Notes under the pieces: model-generated
Database searches by the model: none
What the model was told of the DNA's origin: nothing
Seen by the model: only the letters and a program-made list of their open reading frames with translations
From: Sphingomonas sp. LaA6.9
GTDB taxonomy: Bacteria > Pseudomonadota > Alphaproteobacteria > Sphingomonadales > Sphingomonadaceae
Direction of reading: 5' to 3'
Length of the DNA: 57,780 bases
NCBI RefSeq assembly: GCF_022601895.1
Contig: NZ_JAKVIO010000028.1
Span: 1 to 57,780 of the forward strand
Part shown: positions 22,372-29,325 of the stretch, piece after piece
Layout of the letters: every line of letters begins with the position of its first letter
Numbering within the stretch: position 1 is the stretch's first letter
Position numbers and translations under genes: made by a program

Positions 22372-22461
22372 GGACAGGTGGCCGAGTGGTTTAAGGCAGC
22401 GGTCTTGAAAACCGCCGTGGGTGCAAGCTCACCGTGGGTTCGAATCCCACCCTGTCCGCCA
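22372..22461 (+). tRNA. tRNA-Ser (anticodon UGA)
   Basis: A 90-nt class II tRNA with encoded CCA. The acceptor arms GGACAGG and CCTGTCC pair, with a G discriminator; the anticodon loop is CTTGAAA (TGA); a long variable arm follows; and the T arm is GTGGG-TTCGAAT-CCCAC. The 3' end is the integration site of the adjacent element, whose integrase begins 142 bp downstream. Confidence 0.97.
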
Positions 22462-22463
22462 GC
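22448..22463 (+). repeat. attL core direct repeat (tRNA 3' end)
   Basis: CACCCTGTCCGCCAGC, overlapping the tRNA-Ser acceptor arm and CCA end. Identical to 29310-29325. Flanking bases differ on both sides, which defines a 16-bp core. Confidence 0.9.
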
Positions 22464-22574
22464 AATTCGTTTCCAGCCATTCCCGACGGGCCGAATTACC
22501 CTAGAGAATCTAAGGCATTTTGGCCTTTCATCGTTTCCCCATATTCCTTGTTATTCCCCACAAGCCCGGATACA

Positions 22575-22600
22575 GTGTGGGAAATAATGTGGGATAGGCA
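22575..22600 (+). promoter_or_regulatory. Left arm-type integrase site candidate
   Basis: GTGTGGGAAATAATGTGGGA followed by TAGGCA holds two GTGGGA units. It closely matches 29226-29250 at the other end of the element (GTGGGAAAATGTGTGGGA). Paired short repeats near both cores fit integrase N-terminal-domain binding sites. It also sits just before the integrase start, so the integrase may regulate itself. Confidence 0.5.
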
Positions 22601-22603
22601 GAC

Positions 22604-23788
22604 ATGGGCAAGCTGACAGCAACCGCAATCAAGGCGGCGAAAAAGCCGGGACGATATGGCGACGGCGACGGGCTATTCCTCGTGGTCAACAAGTCGGGCG
22701 CGGCATCCTGGGTTGTACGCGCTCAGAAGGCGGGCAAGCGCCGAGACATAGGCTTAGGCAGCGCCAAGAAGGTTTCGCTGGCTCGCGCCCGCCAATTGGC
22801 CGAATCGGCACGGACGCAAATCGAGGCGGGACTTGACCCCGTTGCCGAGCGCAAGAAGGCCGAAGGCATCCCCACATTCCGGCAAGCCGCCGCGCTCGTT
22901 CACGCCGAGCACAAGAAGGCTTGGCGCAATTCCAAGCATGGCGCGCAATGGCTTTCCACGCTCGAAACCTATGCATTCCCCACCGTTGGCGATTTGCCGG
23001 TGAACGCGGTTGACGGTCCAGCCGTGCGCGATTTGCTGGCGGCAATCTGGCTGGAGAAGAATGAGACGGCGCGGCGCGTCCGCCAGCGCATCGGTGCGAT
23101 TGTCGATTGGGCCGTGGGCAAGGGCTATCGGGACGCTGCCCTGCCTATGGCGGTCATCAATCGTGCGCTCCCCAAGGTGACTAGTAAGGGCGGGCATCAT
23201 GCGGCCCTTCCCTATTCCGAGCTTCCCGCATTCATTGTCCGGTTGCACGAAAGAGAGACATGGGGGCGGCTGGCGCTGGAGGCGGCAATTCTGACGGCGG
23301 CGCGCTCAGGCGAGATTCGCGGCGCGACATGGGCGGAGGTAGATTTGGAGGCGGGCCTGTGGACCGTGCCACCCGAGCGCATGAAGGCGGGCAAGCCGCA
23401 TGTCGTTCCCCTGTCGCCAGCCGCCAAGCGGGTATTCGAGCGGGCGGCGGCGCTTAACACCGTGCGGGCGAAATTCATCTTTGAGGGCGCGAAGCCCGAT
23501 AAGCCCATGTCCGACATGACGCTCATGAAGGTTCTGCGCGACATGGGCGAAAGCTGCACGGCGCACGGCTTCCGCTCCACGTTCCGCGATTGGGTTTCGG
23601 AGCAGACCAATTTCCCCGGCGCGATTGCGGAGCCGGCACTTGCCCACGCCATCGAAAACAAGACCGAGGCGGCATATCGGCGCGGGAATCTACTCGAAAA
23701 GCGGCGCGGCATGATGAACGCTTGGTCCGATTACTGTGACGGAGGGCGGGGCAAGGTCGTTCGGCTGGCAACAGCTAACAAAGGTTAA
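22604..23788 (+). CDS. int: Tyrosine-type site-specific integrase (DUF4102/P4 family)
   Basis: A 394-aa integrase. The N-terminal arm-binding domain (LTATAIKAAKKPGRYGDGDG, then LFLVV) is of the DUF4102 type, followed by a SAM-like core-binding domain and a catalytic domain with Arg in AARSGEIRG, HGFRSTFRDW (HxxR), His in LAHAIENKTE and the nucleophile Tyr in AAYRRGN. It would recombine the 16-bp core in the tRNA-Ser 3' end. Placement beside the target tRNA is typical. Start ATG 22604 follows the arm-site repeats. Confidence 0.96.
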   Translation: MGKLTATAIKAAKKPGRYGDGDGLFLVVNKSGAASWVVRAQKAGKRRDIGLGSAKKVSLARARQLAESARTQIEAGLDPVAERKKAEGIPTFRQAAALVHAEHKKAWRNSKHGAQWLSTLETYAFPTVGDLPVNAVDGPAVRDLLAAIWLEKNETARRVRQRIGAIVDWAVGKGYRDAALPMAVINRALPKVTSKGGHHAALPYSELPAFIVRLHERETWGRLALEAAILTAARSGEIRGATWAEVDLEAGLWTVPPERMKAGKPHVVPLSPAAKRVFERAAALNTVRAKFIFEGAKPDKPMSDMTLMKVLRDMGESCTAHGFRSTFRDWVSEQTNFPGAIAEPALAHAIENKTEAAYRRGNLLEKRRGMMNAWSDYCDGGRGKVVRLATANKG

Positions 23789-23793
23789 CATCA

Positions 23794-23824
23794 GGCGCGG
23801 CTGAGATTTTCCCTCAACCGCGCC
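23794..23824. terminator. Hairpin after integrase gene
   Basis: GGCGCGG-C-TGAG and CTCA-A-CCGCGCC form an 11-pair stem with one mismatch, 6 bp after the int stop. No T-run follows, so it is a terminator or mRNA-stabilising candidate only. Confidence 0.4.
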
Positions 23825-23854
23825 CAATTGTTCTCAACGTTGAAAGGACCAACA

Positions 23855-23932
23855 ATGACGGGTGACGTGCAATTGCTAGCCTTGGCAGCGTACGAAATTG
23901 AGCGCGGGGAGCGCGGGGCATTTGCGGCATGA
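23855..23932 (+). CDS. 25-aa leader peptide overlapping the next gene
   Basis: A very short frame, MTGDVQLLALAAYEIERGER followed by GAFAA. It has a good ribosome site (AAAGGA, 7 bp before ATG) and its TGA overlaps the ATG of the 213-aa gene (ATGA at 23929-23932). That layout suggests translational coupling. No family is recognised. It could be a leader whose translation tunes the next gene. Confidence 0.5.
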   Translation: MTGDVQLLALAAYEIERGERGAFAA

Positions 23933-24570
23933 CGAAACTGCCAACCATCCCCGACGACATGAAAATGGAGTTTGTCGGGCCGACTGTCGAGGATGACGTG
24001 CGCCGCCTGATTGTCCGTTACGGCATTGATGCCGTCCGCGATGCGGTCAAGAAACAGGCCAAGAAGAAAAGGGGTAGGCCTGAAGAAAAGGACATTCGGG
24101 AGCTGCGCCCCTTTCTGGAGCAAGACGCGCGGGCCTGGCTGGAGGGGCGTGACCCGTTTGCCGAGCGTTCAAACTATGCCATCGCGCAACAGTTTGCGAA
24201 TGAGCGGCCAGGTCATAGCTACGCCGGAACAATGACCCGCATCCAGAAGAAGCTTGCACAAAAACGGAAATTCTATGTCTTTGCCATCGCGGAAGCGCTC
24301 GCTCGCGACGAGTACCCCTACAAGCAACACCTTCGAGCGCTCGAAGCGGTCGCAACCGAAAGCGACCATGAAATTTGGACCTTGGTTATAGACCGCGCGA
24401 ACGGCACGCTTGCCTCATACACGCGGAAGCATGGCGAACCCGATGACTCCATCACCATGAAACAAATCGAGGAAGGGGCACGGAATGCGCTGTCCTTTCC
24501 CAATGTGAGCAAGCCTATTCGACTAGGAATACTCGGTTCAATGACGCGAAAGGCCCCGCCGACGAAGTAG
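23929..24570 (+). CDS. Hypothetical basic protein with AT-hook-like motif
   Basis: A 213-aa protein I do not recognise. The first third is charged and has KKQAKKKRGRPEEKD, an AT-hook-like RGRP core near residue 50, suggesting DNA contact. The rest is mainly helical with no signal peptide or membrane segment. It is coupled to a 25-aa leader upstream. A strong inverted repeat begins immediately after its stop. In the early region of the element, a regulatory role is a guess. Confidence 0.7.
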   Translation: MTKLPTIPDDMKMEFVGPTVEDDVRRLIVRYGIDAVRDAVKKQAKKKRGRPEEKDIRELRPFLEQDARAWLEGRDPFAERSNYAIAQQFANERPGHSYAGTMTRIQKKLAQKRKFYVFAIAEALARDEYPYKQHLRALEAVATESDHEIWTLVIDRANGTLASYTRKHGEPDDSITMKQIEEGARNALSFPNVSKPIRLGILGSMTRKAPPTK

Positions 24571-24596
24571 TGTCGAAATTCGCGATAATTTCGACA
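24571..24596. promoter_or_regulatory. Perfect inverted repeat upstream of AlpA-like operon
   Basis: TGTCGAAATT and AATTTCGACA, 10-bp perfect arms around CGCGAT. It directly follows the 213-aa gene stop and lies about 120 bp before the AlpA-like start. It could be an operator for a dimeric repressor or a terminator without a T-run. Confidence 0.5.
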
Positions 24597-24718
24597 TGTC
24601 GGAAATGGGCCGAATTAAATGGTCTGTTGCCGGCTGCTAATGTGCATATTGTCCCTGTCCACACGCTGCGACGCTTGGGCATTCCGCCCTGTCTCGCCAG
24701 CCGTGCGGAGTACGAAGC

Positions 24719-24910
24719 ATGGAAGCTGGATTTCAGACCGTTTCCCAATTTCTACAGACCTACGCCATCAGCCGAACGGAATTTTATCGGCAAGTGGCGT
24801 CGAATAAAATCAGGTTGACGAAAATCGGACGCGCCAGCCGCGTTGCCAAAGCGGACGCCGAGGCATGGGCCGGGAGCCTCCCCACTATCGGCGGGGGGCA
24901 TGAAGCATGA
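24719..24910 (+). CDS. AlpA/excisionase-like helix-turn-helix protein
   Basis: A 63-aa DNA-binding protein with the MerR-like fold of AlpA/Xis regulators: VSQFLQTYAISRTEFYRQVA, then IRLTKIGRASRVAKADAEAW. Such proteins direct integrase toward excision or activate integrase expression in P4-like and genomic-island elements. First of four genes joined by ATGA overlaps, so its dosage is tied to the small DNA-associated proteins downstream. A weak CGGAG lies about 9 bp before ATG. Confidence 0.82.
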   Translation: MEAGFQTVSQFLQTYAISRTEFYRQVASNKIRLTKIGRASRVAKADAEAWAGSLPTIGGGHEA

Positions 24911-25119
24911 GAATGGCAAATGGAAAGGCCGGGACCGTTGCAGCGGTTCCCGGCCTGAAAGTCGCTCGCTTCGTCAGCAAAGCAAATGCCCAATACCCGT
25001 TTTTGCCTATCGGCTCAAATGCCGATTTGGCGGCGCGCGTCATTGGCGAGCGGTTCCGATTATCACCAGCAATCGCCTGTACGATTGCCGAGCTTGTCGG
25101 CTATGGAGCACGCGCATGA
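24907..25119 (+). CDS. Hypothetical 70-aa protein of the island core
   Basis: A small protein with no recognised family. It has an N-terminal variable part and a helical segment NADLAARVIGERFRLSPAIA leading to CTIAELVGYG, which could be a helix-turn-helix-like unit. Its ATG overlaps the AlpA-like stop and its stop overlaps the winged-helix start, which supports it as a real translated gene. Confidence 0.65.
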   Translation: MRMANGKAGTVAAVPGLKVARFVSKANAQYPFLPIGSNADLAARVIGERFRLSPAIACTIAELVGYGARA

Positions 25120-25391
25120 AGCGGCGCATCCTGACGGCAACGGGGCCGGGCGGCGCGTTCACGGTCAAGGGGCAGGTTGCCAAGGCGTTGTCCGCGCTCT
25201 TGTCGGCTGGCGAGAGGGGCGTGACGGCGCTGGAGGTCAATTCCTGGGCCTATCGCCTTGGGGCCTATGTCCACACGCTCCGGCACGATTGCGGGCTGTC
25301 CATCGAGACGGTGCGCGAGCCGCACGATGGCGGCTGGCACGCTCGCTATGTGCTCCGCTCGCCCGTGACGATGGGGGAGGCGCTGGCATGA
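25116..25391 (+). CDS. Winged-helix domain small protein
   Basis: A 91-aa basic protein. Residues about 15-85 fit a winged helix: GQVAKALSALLSAGERGVTA, LEVNSWAYRLGAYVHTLRHD as a recognition-helix region, and a beta-wing ending GGWHARYVLRSPV. ATG 25116 and the stop both overlap the neighbouring genes by 4 bp. I infer a DNA-binding role in control of the element; target unknown. Confidence 0.7.
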   Translation: MKRRILTATGPGGAFTVKGQVAKALSALLSAGERGVTALEVNSWAYRLGAYVHTLRHDCGLSIETVREPHDGGWHARYVLRSPVTMGEALA

Positions 25392-25624
25392 ACGGTGCTG
25401 TCCTTTTCGAGCAGCCCTATCGCGGCGACGTGTGGCGGCTGGAGGTTGCGAGCCATGACGGGCGGACGTTCGGCAACTGGCGCAAGTGGTATTGGGATGG
25501 CGACAACCTGAAACCGACGCGCCAAGGCGTCACGATTCCGTTGGAGCGGCTATCCGAGCTGGAGGCGGCATTGAGCGCCTACAGGAGCGGAAGCGCGCCT
25601 GACGGGGCTCCTAGCGCAAAATAG
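25388..25624 (+). CDS. PC4/p15-like single-stranded DNA-binding protein
   Basis: A 78-aa protein resembling the transcriptional coactivator PC4 fold: VWRLEVASHDGRTFGNWRKW, then YWDGDNLKPTRQGVTIPLER and a final helix LSELEAAL. The pattern aromatic-x-DGD-LKP-x-RQGVTIPL matches PC4 (GE-x-KPG-x-KGISL). PC4-like proteins bind ssDNA, which would suit an element that encodes a putative HUH Rep 87 bp downstream. Coupled by ATGA to the winged-helix gene. The assignment is by eye. Confidence 0.65.
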   Translation: MNGAVLFEQPYRGDVWRLEVASHDGRTFGNWRKWYWDGDNLKPTRQGVTIPLERLSELEAALSAYRSGSAPDGAPSAK

Positions 25625-25710
25625 GCGCATCTAGGCTGGCGGGAGCGGCTGGAGACGGTCGCTCCCCCTTTCTGCCGAGCAATCTTGAAACTTGGGAAAG
25701 GGGGCGAAAA

Positions 25711-26448
25711 ATGCCCTTTTCAGGCTCCAGCCGCGAAGGCGCGATTGGCACAAGTCCGCCGCATCCGGAAAGTGGCACGGCGCTTGCGATATATACTAGT
25801 TCTAAGAGTGCACGGCCATTTGACGCGAAACATGGGTTTTCAGGATGGGGCGGCGCTCGAAACAGCACGGACCGCACAAGCGTTGCACTGACACTGCGAC
25901 AGGCGAGCGGCATAATCGAGGCGGCGCAATTCGCCTATCGCGTGGGCCTTCTCTTCAACCGTCACGTCACAATCCATCTGGAGCGGGCGGGCGTTTCTGA
26001 CAGTGAAGCGGCGGCAGCAATAGGGGCATTCCTGACCCTCGCGCGCGATTGGTTCCGCAAGCAGGGCAAGCGGACGGCATGGGCTTGGGTGCGAGAGAAT
26101 GGCGACGGCAAAGGCTCGCACGTCCATATTCTTTTGCACGTCCCGGTTTGCGTGAAATGGAGCGGTTGGCGGTTGCGGCGCTGGTTGGAGCGCATCACCG
26201 GCAAACCCTATCAGGCGGGCATAATCCAGACGGCGCGCATCGGCGGAACAACACGTGCGGCGGCAACGGCTCCAGCCGCCTATCAGGCCAATCTGGCGGC
26301 GGTTGTCGCCTACGTCATCAAGGGCGCATCGCCTGACGCGGCGCGGGCGCTTGGGCTGGAGCGGTTGGAGGATGGCGGGCGCATCATCGGCAAGCGCGCG
26401 GGATGGAGCCAGAATGTGGGGCTATCAGCACGTTGTCCTAGCTCTTGA
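25711..26448 (+). CDS. Putative HUH-type replication initiator (Rep/Gp2-like)
   Basis: A 245-aa protein with the metal-binding HUH pattern in GDGKGSHVHILLHVP (His-Val-His) and a later Tyr in VVAYVIKGAS that fits a single-Tyr HUH nuclease, followed by GRIIGKRAGWSQNVG, a tail seen in inovirus-type Gp2/Rep proteins. HUH nucleases nick one strand to start rolling-circle replication or transfer. The first 60 residues are low-complexity and the true start may be later. Related repeats at 26.5 and 29.0-29.2 kb are candidate targets. Confidence 0.62.
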   Translation: MPFSGSSREGAIGTSPPHPESGTALAIYTSSKSARPFDAKHGFSGWGGARNSTDRTSVALTLRQASGIIEAAQFAYRVGLLFNRHVTIHLERAGVSDSEAAAAIGAFLTLARDWFRKQGKRTAWAWVRENGDGKGSHVHILLHVPVCVKWSGWRLRRWLERITGKPYQAGIIQTARIGGTTRAAATAPAAYQANLAAVVAYVIKGASPDAARALGLERLEDGGRIIGKRAGWSQNVGLSARCPSS

Positions 26449-26530
26449 ACGTTTCCGAATACACGCGCTCTGTTAGTATAAGTTAACCCGAAGCGGTTCC
26501 TCCGGTTATCTAAAATAGAGGAAAATAGAC

Positions 26531-26554
26531 ATTTTCGACGCCATTACGCGCGCC
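26531..26554 (+). repeat. Repeat copy A of the ACGCCATTACGCGCG family
   Basis: Contains TTTTCGACGCCATTACGCGC. The 22 bases upstream (CTAAAATAGAGGAAAATAG...) also match the bases before copy B at 29027. Lies about 80 bp after the Rep gene. Confidence 0.6.
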
Positions 26555-26796
26555 CTTTTCTAAGCGTGGCTAACCGTTTTCTAACGGCGGATACCGGTAG
26601 CGTTGTTCGCTGATAATACAGGGCGGAAACAGGCGCGGCGAACGGGCCGCTATTTGGCCCGGAGCGCGGCAACTGTGGCAAGGATGATGCTTTTCAGCAT
26701 AACCGCCAGGATTGTTAGCGCCGTCATGCGCAGAATCTATCCCGATTCACCATGCGAGCCTAGGCGGCGTGGACAAATTCGATGAGCCACCACGAC

Positions 26797-26856
26797 GGCA
26801 GCTATCCGCGATTTTGGTCTAGAATTGGCCTTTCCGGACCCGACCCAAAGTCGGAC
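26797..26856 (+). repeat. Diverged dispersed repeat, copy 1
   Basis: GGCAGCTATCCGCGATTTT, then GGACCCGACCCAAAGTCGGA. It aligns with 27642-27705 (GGCAGCTATTCACGATTTT, then GGGACACGACCCAATC). Probably decayed remnants of one intergenic element. Confidence 0.45.
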
Positions 26857-27040
26857 GGTCGCGCCCTCGAAAGCGGATGCAAAATCCGGACTGTCTGGAC
26901 ACGCCATTGCTGCCATTCCGTTGCCGTGACAGCCTTCGTAAAACTGGCCCCTTGTTCATCTAGGCCGGGATGGCAACAATCGATTAAGCGCGAGTGATAA
27001 AATTCTCACCTCCGCCTTCGTTTCAATTGCAATAAATACA

Positions 27041-27430
27041 CTACATTCCGAAATAAACTGGGGAAATTACAAGGTCATTTTCCACGGCAAAATTTGACGG
27101 AGAGATTATCAAGAAAGTTAAACAAAGAGCTGCCAATATAACTTTGTCACTTACATAACTTTTTTCTGACAAATACAGCGCTGTATGAATAATCAAAAAT
27201 ATCACTAACAGAGGGTAGAAAACCACAGTCAGTAAAAATATAGTATTTATTTCAAAAAAATGCACAGAAATATAGTTTATAGATATCGGCCCAAATGCGT
27301 ATATGTTCCCCCACACTAAATTCACCACAGGTTTGGTGTTTAAGTAAAAGCAAAATACTGGCAAAAAAACGCCTGAAAATAACGAAAACAGGGATAAGGC
27401 AACAATTTTATTTGTAAATGTTGAACGCAT
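27041..27430 (-). CDS. Hypothetical AT-rich integral membrane protein (cargo)
   Basis: A 129-aa protein with about four transmembrane segments: KIVALSLFSLFSGVFLPVFC, then a second near ISINYISVHFF, a long one in IFLLTVVFYPLLVIFLIIHT, and another in VILAALCLTFLII. The DNA here is strongly AT-rich compared with every neighbour, a sign of recent acquisition from a low-GC source. No family recognised. It is on the minus strand and stands alone. An immunity or envelope-modifying role is possible but not shown. Confidence 0.6.
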   Translation of the reverse strand: MRSTFTNKIVALSLFSLFSGVFLPVFCFYLNTKPVVNLVWGNIYAFGPISINYISVHFFEINTIFLLTVVFYPLLVIFLIIHTALYLSEKSYVSDKVILAALCLTFLIISPSNFAVENDLVISPVYFGM

Positions 27431-27474
27431 AACGCCATCCCCTCATGACGAACACAGCAGCCATATCCGCCCCT

Positions 27475-27642
27475 TTAAACCCATTGCTTCGGCGTCGGCT
27501 TACGCCTTCTTTGTCGGCAACTAGTAACCGCCACAGCCGCCGCGGCTACTGGTGTCGCAAGAGGCGCCAGCAGCAGCGTGCCGACTAGCAGCGCGCCACT
27601 CACCACAACTTCGATAGCGACGACAGCTCCTTTGTTTGTCAT
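27475..27642 (-). CDS. Possible 55-aa single-span membrane protein
   Basis: A short frame from ATG 27642: MTNKGAVVAIEVVVSGALLV followed by GTLLLAPLATPV, then a basic tail CRQRRRKPTPKQWV. The hydrophobic span followed by positive residues is protein-like. There is no clear ribosome site and the start lies at the edge of a repeat, so it may be chance. It is adjacent to the AT-rich membrane gene on the same strand. Confidence 0.35.
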   Translation of the reverse strand: MTNKGAVVAIEVVVSGALLVGTLLLAPLATPVAAAAVAVTSCRQRRRKPTPKQWV

Positions 27643-27705
27643 GGCAGCTATTCACGATTTTTTCCAAAAGGCCGCCTGTCGGGACACGACCCAATCTTTG
27701 CCGTT
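27642..27705 (+). repeat. Diverged dispersed repeat, copy 2
   Basis: Second copy of the unit at 26797-26856. Both lie inside the integrative element, in non-coding DNA on either side of the AT-rich membrane gene. Confidence 0.4.
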
Positions 27706-27937
27706 TTCCTTCTTCGGGCGAATGTTTGGATCCTGCCGTTTATTCAGCTTCGGTAGTCGGGGCACGAGAGCGTGAGATGACCTCACTACCCGCGTCCAGA
27801 AATCATTCGTGCGAGAAAGTGAGTATTCCGGCGATTTGCCGGATTATCAGCGCATAGCCGATCAAAATTCATCAATTTTTTGTCAGTTCATTCCAAACCA
27901 AGGGCTTGGCAAAGCATCTTGGCGGAAGGACTGCCCA

Positions 27938-28705
27938 GTGAAAAAGTTATGGGCAATTTCGACCTTCAGCGCATTGATGTTGAGCGGCTGCGGAGACTCG
28001 GCAAGGGTCAATTATCGCGTGATTGTCGAGGTGAACGATAATGGCGTGAAGCGTGCCGGTTCGAGTGTATGGTCTTACTCGATAGCCGAGAACGTGTCGC
28101 TTGGTGGTAAAAGCTATAAGTTCAAGTTTAACGGTGAAGCCGTGGCGATAGATTTGCCGGGCCGAGGAACCCTTTTCGCGCTCTCCGAGGGCAGAAGTCC
28201 CGAAGGATTTTATCGAGGTGCCGAAGTGCGCATGGCGCCCGAAGCGTTATTCCGAGATGAGTTGACGCGGGAACGCGCAGGACATCGCGGGAAAACACTC
28301 CAGCGTCATGAAAAGCTTCGCGAGATTTCCAATATGGCGGGCCGCGCTAAATCGCTGCATTGTCCAGAAGTCTTCAACCCTGTGCCAAGTTTAGTTCATG
28401 AGCCATGGAGCGATTGCCCATTCATGGTTCGATTCCGCGATATTCGCAATCCGGCTTCAGTCGAGGCGGTTGATCCGGCGGATCTGGCTGCCGCCTTTGG
28501 GAAAGGTGTGAAACTGCAACGAATTGTGATTCAGATTACGCGGGACGAAGTCACAGGGGGAATAGGCAAGAAAATGCCTTGGCTGGAGCAATGGGCGGGC
28601 AAAAGGGTTTACCTCAGCGGCAAACCATTCGGAACGTTAAATCCTGACCGACATGATTCGCTTGCGGACCAGCTCAGTGCGGGCGCCTTTAGTACTGAAA
28701 TGTAA
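27938..28705 (+). CDS. Hypothetical lipoprotein (island cargo)
   Basis: A 255-aa putative lipoprotein. I start at GTG 27938 because GGAAGGA lies 8 bp upstream and the frame then gives a lipoprotein signal, VKKLWAISTFSALMLSGC. The mature part begins GDSARVNYRVIVEVNDNGVK and looks soluble, with a later pair of Cys residues in HCPEV...DCPFM that could form a disulfide. No family is recognised. It is the largest cargo gene and is close to the right end of the element. Location in the envelope is predicted; function unknown. Confidence 0.78.
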   Translation: MKKLWAISTFSALMLSGCGDSARVNYRVIVEVNDNGVKRAGSSVWSYSIAENVSLGGKSYKFKFNGEAVAIDLPGRGTLFALSEGRSPEGFYRGAEVRMAPEALFRDELTRERAGHRGKTLQRHEKLREISNMAGRAKSLHCPEVFNPVPSLVHEPWSDCPFMVRFRDIRNPASVEAVDPADLAAAFGKGVKLQRIVIQITRDEVTGGIGKKMPWLEQWAGKRVYLSGKPFGTLNPDRHDSLADQLSAGAFSTEM

Positions 28706-29026
28706 TCAATAGCGCCGATCCAAACGAACCCGCTGTCGGGAGGAGCATGGTCGGCAGGTAGAAATTGAACGGCAGCTTTTTGGCGAAATGCGCACAGAGC
28801 GGACAGTCCGCTCCCCACGACTTTTCGGCCATTCGGTCGGCCAAAATGCCCTCCCGATAGCGGACGGATCATGCCGGAATTTGTCCACGCCACCTAGAGC
28901 GCCGGTGTCGCCTAACACGCTCCCCCAGCATGGGCCGGAAACAAGTCAGCTCGTAACTTGCCTCACGATCATGCACTTACGCCTGCCAAGGGGTTGCCGC
29001 CGTTTGCTAAAGTAGACGGGAATAGA

Positions 29027-29180
29027 ATTTTCCGACGCCTTCATGCGCGCGCGTAACTAGGGCGTCGGAGTTTTTGGACGCCATTACGCGCGGGCGCGCG
29101 TAGTCAGGCGAGCATGGGTTTTGTCAGGCCCGAAAAAGAGGGCGGCGGGCGAGTTTTCGGACGCCATAAAAAGCGGGGCG
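29027..29180 (+). repeat. Cluster of TTTTCGGACGCC repeats, origin candidate
   Basis: Three direct copies: B at 29027 (TTTTCCGACGCCTTCATGCG), C at 29071 (TTTTTGGACGCCATTACGCG) and D at 29153 (GTTTTCGGACGCCATAAAAA). An inverted copy GGCGTCGGA lies at 29061-29069, so B and the inverted copy can pair as a 9-bp stem. Copy A is at 26531. Iteron-like repetition with a hairpin near a putative HUH Rep suggests a replication or transfer origin. Confidence 0.55.
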
Positions 29181-29225
29181 TGCCGAATAAAATAACCGGC
29201 GAAAATACCGGTGACTTTGCCGTGA

Positions 29226-29250
29226 CGTGGGAAAATGTGTGGGAAAGGCA
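29226..29250 (+). promoter_or_regulatory. Right arm-type integrase site candidate
   Basis: CGTGGGAAAATGTGTGGGAA followed by AGGCA matches the left arm repeat at 22575-22600. About 60 bp from the attR core. Confidence 0.5.
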
Positions 29251-29277
29251 TTATAGCGTTGGAAAATAATCAATATA

Positions 29278-29290
29278 AATCAAATCATTA
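29278..29290 (+). promoter_or_regulatory. IHF consensus site near attR
   Basis: AATCAAATCATTA fits WATCAANNNNTTR exactly, in an AT-rich stretch between the right arm repeat and the attR core, the order seen in lambda-type attachment sites. Confidence 0.5.
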
Positions 29291-29309
29291 AGCGCATCTG
29301 TTAGACAGA

Positions 29310-29325
29310 CACCCTGTCCGCCAGC
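29310..29325 (+). repeat. attR core direct repeat
   Basis: CACCCTGTCCGCCAGC, identical to the tRNA-Ser 3' end at 22448-22463. Marks the right boundary; chromosomal DNA resumes with the SnoaL promoter region. Confidence 0.9.

Follow-up and report, generated by a model that had tools for sequence, protein, structure and literature searches.

A 6.9-kb integrative element with an HUH-type Rep in a serine tRNA gene of Sphingomonas sp. LaA6.9, probably one member of a coherent family

A 6.9-kb element lies in a serine tRNA gene of Sphingomonas sp. LaA6.9 on contig NZ_JAKVIO010000028.1, of which positions 1 to 57,780 were analysed as one stretch of 57,780 nucleotides (nt), here called the window. 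An earlier interpretation made from the letters alone (the sequence-only reading) had described a compact integrative element with 16-bp direct repeats, a tRNA-Ser target, an integrase, an AlpA-like gene, a run of overlapping small DNA-binding genes, a putative HUH Rep and low-GC cargo, and each of these features was recovered in our analysis. The integration target is tRNA-Ser(UGA) (22372-22461, plus strand), which is kept intact and was called by ARAGORN (anticodon TGA) as well as by Rfam (tRNA at 22372-22458). The direct repeat CACCCTGTCCGCCAGC, exact over 16 nt, forms the attL core at 22448-22463 and the attR core at 29310-29325 (both plus strand); its left copy is the 3' end of tRNA-Ser(TGA), and the bases neighbouring the two copies differ. 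Among 400 simulated 15-kb sequences (order-1 Markov), the best exact match to the window tRNA was 14 nt (2 of 400), so a 16-nt repeat is beyond chance. On the plus strand, the heptamer TGTGGGA has three copies in the element (22576, 22588 and 29238), which fall within probable left (22571-22600) and right (29221-29250) arm sites of the integrase, and none in 17.1 kb of flank (24 kb scanned). This distribution supports the ends of the element independently.

The core genes lie on one strand in the order integrase, 213-residue protein, alpA, three small genes and rep. The tyrosine integrase (22604-23788, plus strand) matches PF13356, PF22022 and PF00589, all above cut-off. The 213-residue helical protein that follows (23929-24570, plus strand) has no assigned function; relatives of it occupy the same place in two related loci (L056 and L066; L and G numbers denote loci and genomes), and among the folds ranked by Foldseek no PDB entry matched it at E <=0.001. 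The AlpA-like excisionase or regulator (24719-24910, plus strand) matches TIGR01764 (E 3e-4) and HTH_17 (E 0.017), both below cut-off. This match is weak alone, but when a profile built from AlpA-like proteins of the family is used, 50 of the 61 loci introduced below show a member upstream of rep. Three 4-nt overlaps join alpA to the next three plus-strand genes, namely a 70-residue open reading frame (ORF; 24907-25119, no Pfam match), a winged-helix protein (HTH_91; 25116-25391; PF22324, E 7e-25) and a PC4-like protein that possibly binds single-stranded DNA (25388-25624; PF02229, E 2e-5), whose 24.4 bits fall just under the cut-off of 25.

The last core gene encodes an HUH/Y1 Rep (25711-26448, plus strand), recognised by Pfam, by an alignment of Reps and by fold comparison. 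The sequence-only reading had called it putative, and it now scores 28.2 bits against PF23343 (REP_ORF2-G2P), above the curated cut-off of 27.8. Its residues H137-V-H139 and Y201-V-I-K204, which we take to be the HUH and YxxK motifs, are invariant or at least 90% conserved across the 45 Reps of alignment A1, from which fragments, duplicates and the most distant Reps were left out. The predicted fold is of the HUH type, and the folds nearest to it are those of replication Reps. By motif, predicted fold and PF23343 match, the protein appears to be an HUH/Y1 Rep, which is predicted to nick an origin at a candidate site. It shares the HUH motif, YxxK and predicted fold with the ORF2/G2P-type Reps of microviruses and inoviruses (PF23343), but identity among the structural matches listed is only ~11-22%, the window Rep sits on an integrative element, and three Rep queries found no match in phage records. 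A SAVED-type match of Rep in a PADLOC scan of nine window proteins (E 9e-4) was weak and was taken as chance.

Of 397 genomes drawn from the family Sphingomonadaceae, 51 (about one in eight, the window genome included) have a relative of Rep. Such relatives also occur in one of five genomes of the genus (the window genome itself) and in 8 of 385 and 7 of 398 genomes drawn from the class and the phylum, the window genome being counted in both. The comparison below uses 61 non-duplicate loci: the window, 58 fetched of 62 relative places (G329, G032:C31, G089 and G087 were left out), L002 and L004; L003 and L005, which duplicate L036 and L089, were removed. Upstream of rep and on the same strand, an integrase is present in 51 of these loci, an AlpA-like gene in 50 and both in 48, while a profile search found the PC4-like protein in 18 and the winged helix in 16. 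Exact tRNA-derived repeats of at least 14 nt (Ser, Glu, Arg, Leu, Asn) bound 23 loci, six of which rest on repeats of only 14 or 15 nt. Twenty-two relatives are therefore bounded as the window element is, at several tRNA types; the sequence-only reading had proposed a search for the gene set beside other tRNA-Ser genes of sphingomonads. These elements measure 4.15-12.0 kb with a median of 6.85 kb; about 6.9 kb, correctly judged small for an autonomous island, is therefore the family median. In the Rep tree, read by eye, genera, integrase types and tRNA targets are mixed within clades, which suggests that Rep lineages cross genera and tRNA targets. In three genomes of one other family (L105-L107), a distant Rep, a tyrosine integrase and a tRNA lie in one stretch (two were scanned with Pfam); these may represent another family of this type.

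The ends of the relatives were compared in the same manner. Of the 23 bounded elements 14 were tested, and TGTGGGA lies near both ends in 6 of these (window, L052, L060, L061, L062 and L072; L052 has additional internal copies), and the integrases of these six are at least 62% identical, whereas none of the remaining eight tested has it near both ends, including L089, whose integrase is 61% identical. From this distribution we infer that TGTGGGA is an arm site of the integrase. The target of L060, from another genus, is likewise the 3' end of this tRNA-Ser, with the 14-nt repeat CACCCTGTCCGCCA. As a separate observation, in another species of the genus (L120, G003:C11:110000-124000) the same tRNA-Ser appears split, with its 3' part ~8.4 kb from its 5' part and an intact tRNA-Ser adjoining the 5' part; this is probably another island at the same target.

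The predicted crossover can also be examined at an unoccupied site. When the flanks of L062, a 7.2-kb relative in tRNA-Ser, are joined at the predicted crossover, they match genome G805 unbroken over bases 1-598 of 600 at 86%. G805 belongs to a sister species of the same genus as L062 and has its Rep at another place, and it offers a natural, clean empty site for this relative; the sequence-only reading had asked for such a match at the window element's own site in a sister strain. The relative's flanks were used because in G002, the only genome that keeps the window's right flank well conserved, this flank lies ~660 kb away from the tRNA.

Two short boxes lie at the start of rep. Box A, TTGAAACTT (25685-25693, plus strand; family pattern TTGAAACT[TG]), and box B, TGGCACGGCGCTTGC (25773-25787, plus strand; 88 nt from box A), were considered as a candidate origin, with the nick region at box B, or as a sigma-54 promoter. 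The box A pattern precedes rep in 40 of the 61 loci, against a background of ~0.001 per 370 nt, and the box B pattern TGGCA[CT]N6TGC in 30 (background ~0.004 per 370 nt); the removed duplicates L003 and L005 carry neither. With a looser box B, both occur in 27 loci, spaced 88-92 nt apart in 23, 67-69 nt in 3 and 100 nt in 1. Box A stands alone in 13 loci, 8 of which have a TATTATAGG-like box 93-95 nt (5 loci) or 105 nt (3 loci) downstream. As a universal signal the boxes are weakened by the 14 loci that have neither, since these include L035 and L036, close to the window Rep in the tree. In L044 and L039, box A folds into a strong hairpin (z -2.95 and -4.05), but not clearly so in the window (z -1.67); a hairpin at the window's box B was rejected as no better than shuffles (z +1.31). 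Box B was also tried as a conserved peptide (GTALAI), which was rejected because it is out of the Rep frame in 9 of 33 loci, two of them doubtful (L050 and L090, one for its position and one for a broken Rep).

Box B is close to the -24/-12 consensus of sigma-54 promoters, and it might be such a promoter with box A as its upstream activator site. The gene rpoN is present in all 40 genomes searched (of 51 bearing Rep), and the spacing of the boxes varies by about whole helical turns, a pattern that codon steps could produce as well. Nevertheless, in 24 of 33 loci box B is in frame with Rep, and a second clade of Reps combines box A with a different second box. A promoter for rep at box B is awkward, because in 12 of 33 loci, the window included, no in-frame ATG, GTG or TTG is listed between the box and the Rep core (the first bases after the box being skipped). 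We regard the promoter as possible, at clearly less than even odds. In phiX174, the origin lies inside the 5' part of gene A. A phiX174-like origin inside the 5' part of rep would fit the boxes better than a promoter, and the two-box signature looks like a built-in origin, for which it is a candidate.

Taken together, the element is real, probably mobile and a member of a coherent family. We consider, with a probability of roughly 70%, that it is an integrative element whose family has its centre in the Sphingomonadaceae, and that it is replicated by Rep as a rolling circle and depends on a helper. This reading draws on what can be read directly in the DNA: the target, the crossover core, the sites inside both ends, the order of integrase, alpA, small genes and rep, a Rep with all catalytic motifs, the wide spread of the gene set and the empty site of a relative. 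In the proposed cycle, AlpA and the integrase would excise the element as a circle; Rep would nick an origin, probably located where rep itself begins (boxes A and B, 25685-25787), and drive rolling-circle replication, with the PC4-like protein on the single strands; the DNA would then leave in a helper's particle or through its conjugation pore and re-integrate in a tRNA gene. Several points weigh against this reading. Excision, circle, nicking and transfer are predicted steps, none of them observed. The four other genomes of the genus carry no Rep and no element in their tRNA-Ser regions, and no empty site of the window copy was found among them. The AlpA match of the window is weak on its own, and 13 of the 61 loci lack an integrase or AlpA-like gene upstream of rep (the seven most distant Reps, L083-L088 and L092, together with L057, which lies at a contig end, L004, L037, L055, L071 and L091). 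The window copy may have decayed, since its cargo region holds repeats and few clear genes. One divergent relaxase among the relatives is also possible: Pfam listed 25 of 40 cargo families, so that only for the ten scanned proteins of the window can relaxases be called absent with confidence.

The earlier proposal of an integrative HUH-Rep element lacking transfer genes gains support from the empty site of L062 and the 22 bounded relatives; that it borrows packaging or transfer machinery is still something we infer, and no helper signal was found. A phage (in the manner of PICMI satellites) and a conjugative system (in the manner of integrative and mobilizable elements, IMEs) are about equally likely as helper. 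For the phage, the PICMI report describes satellites of ~6 kb that can make do with an integrase, AlpA and a single replication gene, and the window element follows the same minimal plan; it is also PICMI-like in having no capsid remodelling genes, in its non-coding stretches with small ORFs or pseudogenes and in its variable cargo, and rolling-circle replication is reported for the PICMIs of Vibrionaceae (PMC10803314). A phage would induce AlpA, and concatemers made by Rep would be packaged in unmodified helper capsids, for which the restriction cargo of some relatives also speaks. Against it, the window has an HUH Rep where PICMIs have a DUF3987/DUF5906 primase, of which Pfam found no match in the ten window proteins; the targets are tRNA genes rather than fis, and the hosts are different. 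Element DNA matched phage records (3) and plasmid records (12) in the integrase region only, and four single Rep queries gave no confirmed match in viral contigs, a scan that detects close relatives only. The host genome has no match to an HK97-type capsid (PF05065, the one capsid type covered), but a virulent helper need not be resident. A satellite of PICMI type is possible, at clearly less than even odds. The best reading is that the element works most like a PICMI with an HUH Rep replacing the primase; having integrase and a weakly matching AlpA, it is not filed as a PICMI because two defining features that were tested, primase and fis insertion, are absent. Gram-negative PICIs likewise combine int and AlpA and have no structural genes (PMC6092414), but the window proteins gave no match to a primase of the PICI primase/rep module, the Rep is of another class, and the core genes are on one strand.

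For the conjugative helper, Rep would also serve as relaxase, and the single strand would be moved by a type IV secretion system resident in the same host. The host genome holds two VirB4-type matches (PF03135), and rolling-circle-type proteins are the putative relaxases of 118 of 144 streptococcal IMEs (PMC5704250). Those IMEs resemble the window element in being integrative, in their rolling-circle-type HUH protein and in having no type IV secretion system, but their proteins are Rep_Trans, Rep_2, PHA00330 or Viral_Rep rather than PF23343-like, and the window family adds AlpA-like and PC4-like genes and Gram-negative hosts (PMC5704250). As expected of an IME, the element appears to have its own recombinase and att sites, namely the integrase, the core repeat and the arm-like sites. 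However, no canonical relaxase (MOB) family, coupling protein or type IV secretion gene was found among the ten window proteins scanned, and the nearest folds of Rep are replication Reps. Some IMEs carry only an origin of transfer (oriT) or a non-canonical relaxase. The mobilizable element is, like the PICMI-type satellite, held at clearly less than even odds. It seems unlikely that the element is a cryptic rolling-circle plasmid that has integrated and, having no dedicated helper, spreads only rarely, through passive uptake or generalized transduction. Distant Rep relatives do occur on small plasmids, such as the 4.3-kb NZ_CP013343 of Sphingopyxis terrae (31-36% identity over part of the length), but this is a plasmid record, and a contig of equal size (L083) has no tyrosine integrase or AlpA match, whereas the int-alpA-rep order, conserved across genera and at several tRNA targets, points to an evolved mobile unit. 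The window copy is similarly unlikely to be a dead family remnant: its non-coding repeats, its few clear cargo genes and the lack of a same-genus copy would suit a remnant, but the reading frames of int, rep and the small genes are uninterrupted, Rep retains its catalytic residues, and neither end has lost its core or arm-like repeats. As an aside, two small contigs bear related Reps, L083 (4,328 bp) and L085 (5,776 bp); a profile search found no integrase in either, and they may be related replicons that are autonomous.

How small tRNA islands move is in many cases not known. Here a family can be defined by a conserved three-gene core, clean ends, one empty site and a candidate origin, and because of this, excision, nicking and the identity of the helper are directly testable. 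No account of such a sphingomonad family was found in the open-access literature, most subscription papers lying outside the search. The fuller proposal falls somewhat short of an even chance: an undescribed, widespread and helper-dependent family of Sphingomonadaceae with a virus-type HUH Rep and a rolling-circle origin built into the beginning of rep (boxes 88-92 nt apart), which shuffles integrases and tRNA targets and carries anti-phage cargo, that is, HUH-Rep rolling-circle satellites that do without primases. Since Rep occurs in so many genomes of the family (51 of 397) and some members carry restriction systems, the elements may be noteworthy carriers of defence genes among Sphingomonadaceae.

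The cargo of the relatives was surveyed with 83 of 103 ORFs of at least 120 residues from 22 elements, some of them core genes; 20 were excluded by eye (5 of the MGGxGSGR family and 15 probable shadow frames or small ORFs). Among the matches listed (25 of 40 Pfam families) are SRAP (4), polymerase Y (2) and type IIG/DrmMI-like proteins (2), with single matches to type ISP-like, type III methylase and helicase, M48, radical-SAM and glycosyltransferase families, and restriction systems are thus cargo of some relatives. The 24 PHROGs matched by these ORFs include no phage structural family.

In the window, G+C falls to 36.8% at 27000-27499, against 61-66% in most flank windows. This low-GC cargo includes a 129-residue protein, probably of the membrane (27041-27430, minus strand; no match at E <0.7). 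Further on lies a probable lipoprotein (27938-28705, plus strand), with its lipobox read by eye, relatives on alphaproteobacterial plasmids and no Pfam match. A 34-nt repeat has four diverged non-coding copies, one in the non-coding stretch after rep (26521-27000; copy at 26521-26554) and three near attR (29018-29177; copies at 29018-29051, 29061-29094 and 29144-29177), neither stretch being assigned to a strand. The copies flank the cargo on both sides, and two of the four contain the core GACGCCATTACGCGC; as a family feature the repeat was rejected, since its core is not repeated in the relatives. An inverted pair of 21 nt (26760-26780 and 28877-28897, 95%) brackets the low-GC cargo and was perhaps left by an earlier insertion.

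Two further observations concern the relatives. A protein of ~205 residues with the motif MGGxGSGR, for which one scanned member gave no Pfam match, lies downstream of rep in 8 of the 23 bounded elements (L052, L056, L061, L066, L068, L073, L079 and L089). Genes for SRAP and a Y-family polymerase adjoin each other as cargo of two elements from different genera (L036:11747-13661 and L064:6998-8926).

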